This document shows positions 59,084 to 63,312 of a stretch of DNA of 64,000 nt, piece after piece (the first letter of the stretch is position 1; every line of letters begins with the position of its first letter). The stretch comes from Arthrobacter alpinus. Lineage in GTDB: Bacteria; Actinomycetota; Actinomycetes; Actinomycetales; Micrococcaceae. The notes beneath the pieces were generated by a model. It was not told the origin of the DNA. It did no database searches and worked only from the letters and a program-made list of their open reading frames with translations. The stretch spans positions 992,001 through 1,056,000 of the forward strand of contig NZ_CP013200.1 in NCBI RefSeq assembly GCF_001445575.1. Reading direction: 5' to 3'. The translations under genes and the position numbers were made by a program.

Positions 59084-59116
59084 TTGTGGCCCCAAACCGT
59101 CGGTTTGGGGCCACAA
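59084..59116 (+). terminator. terminator after the second ferredoxin reductase
   Basis: TTGTGGCCCCAAACCG-t-CGGTTTGGGGCCACAA is a perfect 16-bp stem followed by TCATTT. Confidence 0.8.
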
Positions 59117-59169: not shown

Positions 59170-59201
59170 TTTTCGCGTCATGAACCACTGCGGCGGCACT
59201 C
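59170..59201 (+). promoter_or_regulatory. candidate ECF-sigma promoter, copy A
   Basis: TTTTCGCGTCATGAA (59170-59184), 11 bases, then GCACTC (59196-59201) and, one base on, CA. The same blocks with the same spacing occur at 61288-61319 before the sigma-factor gene. If CGCGTC is the -35 part and GCACTC the -10 part, the spacer is 16 bp, normal for ECF promoters. Transcription would start near 59208. Confidence 0.6.
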
Positions 59202-59259
59202 TCACTAATTGACTCAACCGGAAATGCGGTTGTCGAATGGGGAAAGTTGCTTATTGCTC

Positions 59260-61176
59260 ATGTTGAGAAAAAATCTTTGGCGGGGCCGGAAATGGGCTGG
59301 GGCTGCTGCAGCCGTTGCCGTGGCTGGATCATTGGCCGCAAGTGCCTTGCCGGCGTTTGCAAGTCCGGAATTGCTCACGCCGCCGGTGCCAGCTTTGGCG
59401 GGCGCCATCGTCTCGCCCAACCCGGAACTGCCGCAAAAATGCGGCCTCAACCTGGCCATGGTCTTCGATATGTCCGCGTCCATGAGTAACTCGGATGTCT
59501 CCACCGTGAAGGAAGCCAGCACGGCAGCCGTTGCGGCGCTGCAAGGCACAGCGACCACGATGGGCGTTTACAGTTTCGCGACATTTGCACAGCAGGAGCT
59601 GGCCGCCACCTCGCTGGCCTCCGCGCAGGGAGCCGGCAGCGTCACCAACAGCATCAACGCCCTGGTTCGCCCCAGTGACACGCGAACCTGGGATGGGGGC
59701 ACCAACTGGCAGCAGGGCCTGAACATCGTCCCCGCAAGCACCTACGACGGCGTTATCTTCTTCACCGACGGCGACCCAACATTCTATGGACCCGCACCGC
59801 TGAATGAGCGCGGTGACGGGGCCAGCGGAAACGGGGGCACCGGCCAGGGAGGCGACGCCAATATCGCGGCTTCCCTGAACGCGGCTATCCCCGAGGCCAA
59901 CAGGCTCAAGGATGCCGGAACACGCATCGTCAGTGTGGGTGTCACGGGTGCGAATGCGGACCGACTGGCCAAAATTTCCGGACCGGTTGCCGGGTCCGAC
60001 TACTTCACCACCAACTATGACGAGTTGGCGAACATCCTCAAGGGTATTGCCACGGCAGGTTGCTCCGGCACGCTCAACGTGAACAAGGCTGTTGAGGCCT
60101 TTGATTCCACTGAAACCACACCCGGAGAGGGGTGGGTCTTCGATGCCGCCGCTGAAGGGGCCGAACCGGCAGTCCTGACCACCGGCGCCAACGGGCAAGC
60201 CGGCATGAGCTTGAACTTCCCCGCGAAGGCACCCGTCAAGGTCACCATCAAGGAACGTCAGCAGCCCGGCTACTCCGTGGTAGCGAAGAATGGCTTCAAT
60301 GCCGTCTGCACCCGTGACGGTCGGCCGCTGCCGGTGGCCAACACGGACGACGCCGGAAACATCGGCTTCGAGGTAACTGCGGAAGCTGGCACCATCACCT
60401 CCTGCACCGTGACAAACAAGGCCCCCATTAAGGCCTGGACCATGGAAAAGACCTCTGATACCGCAGGCACCGTCAACCCGGGCGACACAATCACTTACAC
60501 AGTTGTTGCCAGCAATACCGGGGAGGAAACCGTGGACGGCATCACTTTCCTTGATGACCTGTCCGACGTCCTGGACGATGCAACGTTTGTCAGCGGATCG
60601 GCAAAACTCGTCGTGGACGGCGGGGCAGCTGCAGCGGTGGCGGACCCGGCGGGCAACATTCTGACAGCCGGCCCGTTCAGCCTTGCCAAGGGCGGCTCAG
60701 CGGCCCTGAGCTACCAGGTTCAGGTCAAGGACGACGCCTATGGAGCAACCCTGACCAATGCGGTGACAGGCACCGGATCGGTTCCGCCGGCACAGTGTGT
60801 TGCCGCCGATCCGTGCACCACCACGGACATCGTGCCGCCCAAGCCGTCCCCGACGGCAACACCGACGCCGACTGAGACGGAAACGCCGACGCCGACTGAG
60901 ACGGAAACGCCGACGCCGACTGAGACGGAAACACCGACCGAGGCGCCGAGCGAAACTGGAGTGCCCACCACCGGCGCTCCCGCGACCACCGAGGCAGTGG
61001 CCACAACTGCGCCGGGGACAGGTCCGGCGTCGAACATGGAAACAGCTGTAACGGCTCCCGGCAAGGACCTGGCAGTCACCGGAGCGGGCTCCGCTCTGCC
61101 GCTGCTTCTGGGCGGGCTGCTATTGGCTGGCGGGACAACGATGCTTCTGCTCCGACGCATCCGCCGCGCACACTAA
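59260..61176 (+). CDS. VWA-domain surface adhesin with LAVTG sorting signal
   Basis: 638 residues from the ATG at 59260 (an ATG at 59224 is possible). Signal peptide 1-35. A von Willebrand A domain follows with the metal site D70-x-S-x-S (DMSAS) and FFTDGDPTF. Then comes a Cys-containing prealbumin-like region (GTLNVNKAVEAFDS), a DUF11-type repeat (NPGDTITYTVVASNTGEETVDGI), a TPTETE stalk repeated three times, and LAVTG (604-608) with a hydrophobic helix and basic tail. LAxTG suggests class E sortase anchoring to peptidoglycan. The plan is like pilin tip or adhesin proteins, probably binding a host or surface ligand. Confidence 0.88.
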   Translation: MLRKNLWRGRKWAGAAAAVAVAGSLAASALPAFASPELLTPPVPALAGAIVSPNPELPQKCGLNLAMVFDMSASMSNSDVSTVKEASTAAVAALQGTATTMGVYSFATFAQQELAATSLASAQGAGSVTNSINALVRPSDTRTWDGGTNWQQGLNIVPASTYDGVIFFTDGDPTFYGPAPLNERGDGASGNGGTGQGGDANIAASLNAAIPEANRLKDAGTRIVSVGVTGANADRLAKISGPVAGSDYFTTNYDELANILKGIATAGCSGTLNVNKAVEAFDSTETTPGEGWVFDAAAEGAEPAVLTTGANGQAGMSLNFPAKAPVKVTIKERQQPGYSVVAKNGFNAVCTRDGRPLPVANTDDAGNIGFEVTAEAGTITSCTVTNKAPIKAWTMEKTSDTAGTVNPGDTITYTVVASNTGEETVDGITFLDDLSDVLDDATFVSGSAKLVVDGGAAAAVADPAGNILTAGPFSLAKGGSAALSYQVQVKDDAYGATLTNAVTGTGSVPPAQCVAADPCTTTDIVPPKPSPTATPTPTETETPTPTETETPTPTETETPTEAPSETGVPTTGAPATTEAVATTAPGTGPASNMETAVTAPGKDLAVTGAGSALPLLLGGLLLAGGTTMLLLRRIRRAH

Positions 61177-61199
61177 GAGCTAGCGCACGCAAGATTGCG

Positions 61200-61244
61200 C
61201 TGTCGGAGGCTGTCCACGGGAGACCGGTGGACAGCCTCCGACAG
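61200..61244 (+). terminator. hairpin between the adhesin and sigma genes
   Basis: CTGTCGGAGGCTGTCCAC pairs perfectly with GTGGACAGCCTCCGACAG around a 9-base loop, an 18-bp stem. It separates the adhesin from the sigma gene, each of which then has its own promoter copy. Confidence 0.75.
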
Positions 61245-61287
61245 TGGCATTTAAAGGGGTAGAAAAGTTTTTTCAAAACGTTATCAA

Positions 61288-61319
61288 TTTTCGCGTCATG
61301 AATCTGGCTAATCGCACTC
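61288..61319 (+). promoter_or_regulatory. candidate ECF-sigma promoter, copy B (autoregulation)
   Basis: TTTTCGCGTCATGAA (61288-61302), 11 bases, GCACTC (61314-61319), matching copy A at 59170 exactly in the blocks and spacing while the bases between differ. It lies about 70 bp before the sigma-fusion start. Confidence 0.6.
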
Positions 61320-61392
61320 ACAGCCCGGCGGCCGCGGCTGGGTAGACTGCACATGCTGATTGAGGGACGCTCAATGAAGAGGATGGGGCAGC

Positions 61393-63312
61393 GTGGCAGA
61401 GAAGAACATCGGCGTTGTTGAAGACGCCGCGGACACACCGGACAGCGATGAGCAGTTGATCCGGCAGCTTCGCGACGGCAATACGCAGGCATACGCTGGC
61501 CTCTACGAGCGCCATGTTGCAGCCGCCCGGGCTACCGCAAACAGGCACGCAAGCAATTCCAGCGACGTGGCCGATCTGGTGGCCGAGGCATTTGCAAACG
61601 TCCTTGACGCGATCCAGTCCGGCAATGGCCCCACTGTGTTCTTCCGCGCGTACCTCCTGACCACCCTGCGCCGGCTGGCAAGCGTCAAGCGCGCTGCCGA
61701 CGGAAAGCAGGTAGCCGTTGACGATCTTGAAACGGCCATTGCGGCTGAACCCGGCAGTGACCCGGCCGTGGCAGCCTTTGAAAAGGACGTCGTGAGCCGT
61801 TCCTTTAAGGACTTGCCTGAACGCTGGCAGGCCGTGCTCTGGTACACCGAGGTGGACGGACTGGCCCCAGCGGAGATTTCCCCAATGCTTGGCATCACAC
61901 CCAATGCTGTAGCTGCCTTGGCGGTGCGGGCGCGGGAAGGACTTAAACAGGCATATCTGCAGAACCATGTTTCAGCGGCCCCTGGCAGTTGCGCCGATTA
62001 CGCGAACAACTTGGGCGCATATGCCCGCGGAGGGTTGACCCCGCGTCGCAAGGCGAAGCTTGAACTGCATCTGCAAGGCTGCCTTCGCTGTAGCGAAATG
62101 TTGCTGCACGTTGAAGACGTGGGCGTCGGCATGCGCACCATCATCTTCCCGGCGGTGGTAGGTATGGTATTTGTTGGATCGAAGACTTCAGTGGGTGCTG
62201 CGCTGGGGGCTGTCCCGCTGCTTGCCGAAAGTGCCCCTGCAGGGGGATTGGGTGGAGGTGGACTTGGAGGTGCCGGGGCCACGACTCTTGGGTCCGCTGG
62301 CCTGTCCACAGTGGTGGCGGCGTCTGTTGTGGGCATTGCGCTGGTGGGAGCGGTCGTGGCGTCTGCCGTTGGGCTGCCCAATTTTCAGATGCGCGGCGCT
62401 GCCGTCGAGTCGCACCAGATAGCCAGCGCCTTTACCGCTCCTGCGGCTCAAACGCAGCGTCCGCCGGCCGGGACTGCTTCACCGCATGCCGGCCAGCCTG
62501 TAGCCGCCGCAACGCCCGTAGCTCCGAATGATCATGCGGAGTTGTTTATATCCACGGTTCCGCCGGACCCGGACCGCCCCTTGGTTGCGCCCGATGGGCT
62601 GAGGTGGGTCCTGCTGCCAATGGAGCCAACTCCTGTGCAGTCAACACAGTGGGCAACGGCTGCCCCGTCTGTGACCGAACACCCTGCCCCGGAGCCCACG
62701 GCAACCGTGACACTGCCAACGCCAACCCCGATGCCGGCTCCAACACCCAGCGCCACAGCATTGCCTTCCAACCAGCCGTCGAATGTTCCAACGCCGACGC
62801 CGGTCCCAACTCAGGAACCGACGCCGGCACCAACTCAGGAACCGACGCCGGTCCCGACGCCGGCACCAACTCAGGAACCGACGCCAACGCCACCAACGTC
62901 AGCCCCGGCCCCAACAACAACGACCGAACCGACCGCCACTGCTACGCCTGACGCCGGTGCGAATTTCTCGATCAGGGGGAGCCTGCTGTCCCAGACGGCC
63001 ATGGAAACGTTGCTTCAGTTGGAGATCTCCAGCTCGGGAGCGGGTCTGGCCGGCCCACAGGTATCGTTCAGTGTTCCGTATCTCTGGAGGGGAATCCCCA
63101 TCGAGGTGACCCCGCCCGCAGGATGGAGCTGCGCTGACACATCAACGACTCTCAGTGCCGGCGCCAACTGTACGGCGGCCCACTGGGCTGGGACGGTGGG
63201 TACGTTCATGGTCAGTGTGCCCACTCCCGGCATCCTGCCAGGCTATCCAATGAAAATCAGTGTTTCGGCCAGCGGCGCGGAGAGCTTCAACGGCTGGATC
63301 TGGTTCAAATAA
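61393..63312 (+). CDS. ECF sigma factor fused to a zinc-finger anti-sigma and outer domain
   Basis: 639 residues. Sigma region 2 (about 20-101: QLIRQLRDGNTQAYAGLYERH, DVADLVAEAFANVLDAI) and region 4 (about 135-187: LPERWQAVLWYTEVDGLAPAEISPMLG) lead. A zf-HC2 anti-sigma motif follows: C200, H226-x3-C230-x2-C233. Hydrophobic segments are at about 248-278 and 305-328; the second is the clearer membrane helix. Then a Pro/Thr stalk (about 415-525) with TPVPTQEPTPAP repeats and a C-terminal beta-rich domain with two Cys (GWSCADTS, GANCTAAHW). One chain thus holds regulator, inhibitor and sensor. It follows the adhesin and shares its promoter motif. GTG start. Confidence 0.88.
   Translation: MAEKNIGVVEDAADTPDSDEQLIRQLRDGNTQAYAGLYERHVAAARATANRHASNSSDVADLVAEAFANVLDAIQSGNGPTVFFRAYLLTTLRRLASVKRAADGKQVAVDDLETAIAAEPGSDPAVAAFEKDVVSRSFKDLPERWQAVLWYTEVDGLAPAEISPMLGITPNAVAALAVRAREGLKQAYLQNHVSAAPGSCADYANNLGAYARGGLTPRRKAKLELHLQGCLRCSEMLLHVEDVGVGMRTIIFPAVVGMVFVGSKTSVGAALGAVPLLAESAPAGGLGGGGLGGAGATTLGSAGLSTVVAASVVGIALVGAVVASAVGLPNFQMRGAAVESHQIASAFTAPAAQTQRPPAGTASPHAGQPVAAATPVAPNDHAELFISTVPPDPDRPLVAPDGLRWVLLPMEPTPVQSTQWATAAPSVTEHPAPEPTATVTLPTPTPMPAPTPSATALPSNQPSNVPTPTPVPTQEPTPAPTQEPTPVPTPAPTQEPTPTPPTSAPAPTTTTEPTATATPDAGANFSIRGSLLSQTAMETLLQLEISSSGAGLAGPQVSFSVPYLWRGIPIEVTPPAGWSCADTSTTLSAGANCTAAHWAGTVGTFMVSVPTPGILPGYPMKISVSASGAESFNGWIWFK

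Follow-up and report, generated by a model that had tools for sequence, protein, structure and literature searches.

The locus

The window analysed here is a 64-kb stretch of Arthrobacter alpinus DNA, in which an adhesin gene and a gene for an ECF sigma factor fused to an anti-sigma domain are each preceded by a copy of the same two-block motif. The features of this region are as follows:

59084..59116, forward strand: perfect 16-bp inverted repeat, terminator-like (putative terminator), after an oxidoreductase gene and before the adhesin gene
59176..59184, forward strand: predicted -35 element of the adhesin gene, CGTCATGAA; CGTCAYGA is kept at four of four adhesin orthologs
59199..59204, forward strand: predicted -10 element of the adhesin gene, CTCTCA
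59211, forward strand: predicted transcription start of the adhesin gene (G after T, as in the consensus), from the 35-base start-codon offset
59216..59231, forward strand: AACCG-GAAATG-CGGTT hairpin just after the predicted start, where the adhesin mRNA would have its 5' end; kept in four of four orthologs
59260..61176, forward strand: adhesin gene, with a signal-like N terminus, a VWA domain with a DMSAS motif, DUF7927/DUF11 and a LAVTG sortase-type tail
61200..61244, forward strand: 21-bp inverted repeat (95%), terminator-like (putative terminator), between the adhesin and sigma genes
61294..61302, forward strand: predicted -35 element of the sigma gene, CGTCATGAA
61317..61322, forward strand: CTCACA, predicted -10 element of the sigma gene; it differs from CWCTnA at one base and is conserved in five genus genomes, the window's included
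61329 (or 61330), forward strand: predicted transcription start of the sigma gene, from the 35-base start-codon offset
61343..61348, forward strand: TAGACT, found by eye, a possible housekeeping-type -10 element for basal expression of the sigma gene
61393..63312, forward strand: fused sigma gene, 639 aa, with sigma, anti-sigma and outer domain in one protein

The signal and sortase-type features of the adhesin were read by eye. ORF calling places its start at TTG 59209, but ATG 59260 is favoured because the orthologs align from its first residue. The folding energy of the adhesin leader is ordinary (z -1.0). Since long, terminator-like inverted repeats precede each motif copy, each of the two genes plausibly needs a promoter of its own.

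The two-block motif in the window

A first, sequence-only reading of this DNA had proposed that TTTTCGCGTCATGAA-N11-GCACTC, found before both genes, is a promoter of the fused sigma factor. The 32-base arrangement is indeed present in two exact copies, at 59170-59201 and 61288-61319, without a mismatch. No further copy was found in the window even when up to three mismatches were allowed, and 100 shuffles yielded none; the occurrence of two copies is far beyond chance. From CGCGTC to GCACTC there are 16 bases in both copies, whose ends lie 58 bases before the adhesin start codon (ATG 59260) and 73 bases before that of the sigma gene (GTG 61393), within the 50-75 bp originally given. A recent duplication, or a chance similarity devoid of function, would account for a 15-base block common to two copies about 2.1 kb apart; nevertheless the intervening bases are not alike in the two copies, the pattern is met again in many genera, and its conservation contradicts such an origin, which is exceedingly improbable. 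The earlier statement that the copies are not a simple duplication is thus borne out.

As a search pattern, the 12-base core CGCGTC-N16-GCACTC with two mismatches occurs at chance level (9 matches in the window against 12.9 expected), and the specificity is therefore considered to reside in the longer first block. A 28-base form with three mismatches gave largely background across the genus genomes and was dropped.

Refined motif and sites in other genera

On the basis of sites in relatives, the motif is sharpened to CGTCAYGA(W), 15 bases, CWCTnA. The 74 loci around fused sigma genes (1.4 Mb) contain 147 CGTCAYGAW sites, after which CTCW follows at a spacing of 14 in 27 cases, of 16 in 23, of 15 in one, of 17 in none and of 19 in eight, and at most five times at each remaining spacing up to 45. 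The sequence CTCTCA scores in both the 14 and the 16 peak, and the common core CWCTnA occupies +23 to +28 counted from the first C of CGTCAYGA. In the promoter originally drawn, with CGCGTC and GCACTC set 16 bp apart, the borders of the blocks need to be moved: GCACTC as the -10 element is replaced by CWCTnA, which starts three bases further on. The sigma-gene copy (CTCACA, with C at +35) is a weaker match to the consensus than the adhesin copy. Upstream of the motif an A-tract and then T-rich DNA are seen in 79 intergenic sites, which we take to resemble UP elements, and A/T-rich, UP-like DNA also lies upstream of the -35 element of the sigma gene.

In the 74 fused-sigma loci the strict pattern was found 54 times, spread over 35 of them; the reversed pattern does not occur there, and ten shuffles of the whole set gave 0 or 1 each. 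This count is partly circular, the pattern having been drawn in part from such loci, and a matrix trained on the genus is the cleaner test. Among 80 loci from named genera 18 occurrences were found in 14 loci and none of the reversed pattern; locus L195 in this set is the same contig as that of genome G014. The matrix was built from 16 genus sites only, with the start-site columns left out. In the 700 bases before the sigma gene a score of 12 was reached by 33 of 61 family genes from other genera and by 36 of 78 named loci (L195, and L265 as too short, omitted; the set is redundant, with Demequina over-represented), compared to 46 of 1,390 shuffled windows. Shuffles were used for this comparison after random windows of the same loci had been dropped as a control that could contain real sites. 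Arthrobacter, Paenarthrobacter, Sinomonas, Isoptericola, Cellulosimicrobium, Cellulomonas, Actinotalea, Oerskovia and Demequina are among the named genera with sites.

At the same threshold no recognisable site precedes the sigma gene in 28 of the 61 family genes and 42 of the 78 named loci. In G145, four of the seven fused sigma paralogs examined lack a score-12 site ahead of the sigma gene, and the 17 loci from Amycolatopsis, Saccharopolyspora, Nocardiopsis and Streptomyces have no reverse-strand site there. The sites run forward in 16 and reverse in 20 of the family genes, and forward in one and reverse in 36 of the named loci; sites before the sigma gene itself are rarer than those facing its divergent neighbour. 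The record L195 (NZ_JADHDY010000002.1), labelled Sporosarcina beigongshangi, a Firmicute name, carries Arthrobacter-like genes and is probably mislabelled.

Distance to the start codon and the predicted transcription start

Among 69 unique strict sites, an ATG or GTG opening an ORF of at least 100 aa stands at exactly +35, that is 35 bases after the first C of CGTCAYGA, in 19, and other offsets between +20 and +79 reach at most six. In other genera the 65 best reverse-strand sites before the sigma gene (matrix score of at least 10) have ATG or GTG at +35 in 43 cases, at +34 in 11, at +36 in one and at +47 in 11. The divergent neighbour of the fused sigma gene belongs to a family of about 250 aa with its start codon at exactly +35 of the motif:

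L124:9066-9818: member of the divergent family; genes judged alike by eye are found at L117, L121, L123, L129, L133, L197, L220, L227, L233 and L252

This family has no Pfam family above the cut-off and no NCBIfam match, and in a protein search its named matches were hypothetical proteins.

The fixed start codon at +35 is best read as leaderless transcription that would begin there. The offset places CGTCAYGA at -35 to -28 and CWCT at -12 to -9, and when it is applied to both copies in the window the likely starts are 59211 and about 61329. The starts proposed earlier, about 59208 and 61326, are hence shifted by three bases. Another assignment, in which an upstream AAAGTT serves as -35 and CGCGTC as -10, is rejected because the terminator-like repeat at the adhesin gene of G016 ends directly before CGCGTC (by eye), and because the +35 start codons put CGTCAYGA at -35.

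The same geometry bears on the assumption that the motif is the operator of a DNA-binding regulator, transcription being left to a housekeeping promoter, which for the sigma gene would be TAGACT at 61343. TAGACT or TAGAAT does lie at a constant distance in three genus genomes, the window's included (by eye), and two motif copies (L309 and L313) have no called gene on their strand. On the other hand the two blocks form no repeat and no palindrome by eye, their spacing is near-fixed, no TAGACT is seen by eye at the adhesin genes, and the start codon that 43 of 65 divergent sites have at exactly +35 suits a promoter. An operator is accordingly held to be very unlikely, and a promoter is the reading followed below.

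Conservation in the genus and association with the fused sigma factor

Relatives of the fused sigma protein (E 8.2e-46 or better) are encoded by 9 of 23 genus genomes (G000, which is the window's genome, G001, G008, G010, G011, G012, G014, G016 and G021); the other 14 yielded nothing better than 6.2e-8. Close adhesin orthologs with 67-69% identity are present, besides the window's genome, in G001, G011 and G016. The ortholog adjoins the sigma gene in G001 and G011, whereas in G016 the two genes lie at contig ends that face each other. Absence of the motif upstream of orthologous gene pairs had been named beforehand as evidence against a promoter; the motif is found upstream of both genes in all four genomes that hold both orthologs (G000, G001, G011, G016). 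Four of these eight sites are variants, the spacer at the sigma gene being one base shorter and the adhesin site having CAC for CAT, in both cases in G001 and G011. The shorter sigma-gene spacer is shared by G010, where a different adhesin of about 2,134 aa (SdrD_B/SpaA) stands behind apparently the same oxidoreductase gene and the motif is kept. In G014 and G021 a small gene just ahead of the sigma gene has the motif before it; in G021 this small gene gives a weak DUF7507 match. The genus paralog locus L070 has no strict motif site. At the same chromosomal place in G001 and G016 lies a motif copy (L309:5218 and L313:6150) with no called same-strand gene close behind it, where perhaps a small RNA or a small protein is encoded.

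In the nine genus genomes with the fused sigma factor CGTCAYGAW-N14-CTCW matched 25 times against 6 for the reversed control, and in the 14 genomes without it 14 times against 12. Thirty of these 39 matches were inspected, and 11 of 18 from genomes with the fused factor were intergenic versus none of 12 from genomes without it; intergenic status comes from a crude ORF call, and in two more of the 18 a called ORF starts inside the motif. The looser CGTCAYGA-N15-CWCT is less clean, its matches being common also in genomes without the fused factor. At the family level (197 genomes, counted from the result tables) CGTCATGAW-N14-CTCW gave 30 matches versus 5 in the control for 58 genomes with the fused sigma factor (E 1e-30), and 27 versus 21 for 139 genomes without it.

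These counts also bear on the source of recognition. The motif could be the promoter of another ECF sigma factor, since the genome encodes at least one further sigma relative (G000:C1:171868) and recognition by the fused factor is a prediction; such an assignment is very unlikely when the excess of the motif is confined to genus genomes with the fused factor and the motif clusters at fused sigma genes across genera. The fused sigma factor is thus kept as the presumed reader of the motif.

Genes behind the motif

In G000 the refined pattern with at most one mismatch fits 13 sites, ten of which lie within ORFs and are probably chance matches. The three intergenic ones precede the adhesin gene, the sigma gene and a 203-aa gene at about 482.0-482.6 kb (locus L166, about 482.0-482.7 kb) with a DUF7507 match (E 3.2e-4) below the Pfam cut-off. 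The sigma gene and the adhesin, named as targets at the outset, are supported as predicted targets, although the regulon would not be limited to them and would include at least one further gene.

Of the proteins encoded behind motif sites 38 were scanned, 35 picked from strict sites (sigma genes, doubtful ORFs and some near-duplicates omitted) and three from genus-pattern matches. The domains found were DUF7507 (6), Bac_transf (4), VWA (4), DUF11 (4), DUF7927 (3), SpaA_3 (2), Big_8 (2), thioester (1) and LPXTG anchor (1); non-surface ones were response regulators (2), DUF1684 (2), PIG-L (1) and ATP-grasp (1). It can be said that surface adhesion and the envelope are the theme of the predicted targets, though not exclusively. 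Behind the motif lie, in some genera, sugar-transferase (Bac_transf) genes (L117:7340-8770, L110:11095-12612), which perhaps serve exopolysaccharide.

The fused sigma protein and its proposed action

Residues 1-190 of the fused protein comprise ECF sigma-70 regions 2 and 4 without region 3. Behind the sigma domain a zf-HC2 zinc anti-sigma finger was detected (3.3e-7). Its presumed zinc-binding residues are C200, H226, C230 and C233; in two alignments, of 17 and of 35 proteins, all four are present without exception. Hydropathy peaks at 243-261 and 307-325, from which the membrane topology is predicted, are followed by a Pro/Thr stalk. The outer domain (about 524-639) is predicted from its model to be an adhesin-like beta-sandwich with a fold like that of an adhesin or pilin. 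The fold search with the full model effectively covered residues 16-190 and 517-639; for the outer domain adhesins and integrins stood at the top of the matches and a cellulose-binding domain further down the list, and a Pfam scan found no carbohydrate-binding domain in this protein. In four relatives (P0111, P0178, P0124, P0145) an ECF sigma factor and a zinc anti-sigma finger are joined to a SpaH-like major pilin. P0111 and P0178 carry the NCBI name major pilin, and an LPLTG sortase-type signal ends all three sigma-pilin fusions whose sequences were examined. The genome G145, a family genome of 3.2 Mb, encodes nine fused sigma paralogs.

Comparative genomics (conservation at orthologs, an excess that in the genus is seen only where the fused factor is encoded, and the +35 distance) lends support to the promoter reading. 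The motif is very probably a promoter recognised by the membrane-fused ECF sigma factor, which would thereby activate the adhesin gene, at least one other gene and its own. The sigma part would recognise CGTCAYGA at -35 together with CWCTnA at -10. The zinc finger domain may keep the sigma domain silent at the membrane until the outer adhesin-like domain undergoes some event that results in proteolysis and liberation of the sigma part. Once freed, it would bind RNA polymerase, raise its own level by positive feedback through the promoter of the sigma gene and switch on adhesin production.

More tentatively, the factor could sense the assembly state of the kind of surface protein that it would activate, its own outer part being a predicted module of the adhesin or pilin type (in some relatives a pilin whose tail is sortase-type). 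Handling, pulling or wall-linking of the outer module would then free the sigma domain and tune adhesin production; we regard this as possible, yet rather doubtful.

Relation to known systems and significance

Autoregulated -35/-10 promoters are usual for ECF sigma factors with a separate anti-sigma protein. In five genus genomes, the window's included, a conserved pair of -35 and -10 sequences likewise lies ahead of the fused sigma gene. Separate-anti-sigma factors of the SigW-RsiW and sigmaE-RseA kind have -35 elements of the GGAAC type, in contrast to CGTCAYGA here. In structure matches their sigma region resembles that of the window's protein, whereas their anti-sigma is a separate protein.

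The architecture itself, an ECF sigma factor with a zinc anti-sigma domain as in ECF52/53, is already known. A close parallel is SCO4117 (ECF52) from Streptomyces coelicolor, a single protein in which the sigma domain is followed by a zinc finger, a membrane region, an extension rich in proline and an outer domain, and for which positive autoregulation and proteolytic release were proposed (PMC5826349). The domain order is the same as in the window's protein, but the outer domain of SCO4117 is a carbohydrate-binding module instead of a predicted adhesin-like beta-sandwich, and SCO4117 is tied to development and antibiotics (PMC5826349), while the targets predicted here include adhesins. Its proposed motif CSGYN-17-SRHA, termed theoretical by its authors (PMC5826349), has a different -35 element; compared by eye, TTTTCGCGTCATGAA contains no C(C/G)G(C/T), so the ECF52 motif as given in the available text is not matched.

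In a second source, ECF48 and ECF53 are groups of actinobacterial sigma factors that carry a zinc anti-sigma domain and one or two membrane helices in the same polypeptide, and release by proteolysis is expected for ECF48/52/53; the text consulted gives no promoter or regulon for ECF48 or ECF53 (PMC8999054). The window's protein is likened to these groups by its features (the fused zinc finger, two hydrophobic stretches and a proline-rich extension). IutY of Pseudomonas putida (ECF243) is described there as a sigma factor fused to a membrane anti-sigma and freed by regulated proteolysis (PMC8999054); it likewise joins both functions, but in iron-siderophore signalling of a Gram-negative organism.

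Although proteins of this kind are known, a search of the open-access literature turned up neither this promoter nor its start-site geometry, nor an adhesin-centred regulon controlled by sigma factors of this type. Fused ECF sigma factors of this kind are widespread in actinobacteria, but for the ECF52 member that was characterised first the promoter signature is left unsettled in the text consulted (PMC5826349). For the Micrococcales branch a precise predicted promoter and start site can now be offered together with a predicted regulon rich in adhesin and envelope genes, by which these one-protein sensors would be linked to surface attachment. The sigma-pilin fusions, if functional, would connect a surface structure directly with RNA polymerase.
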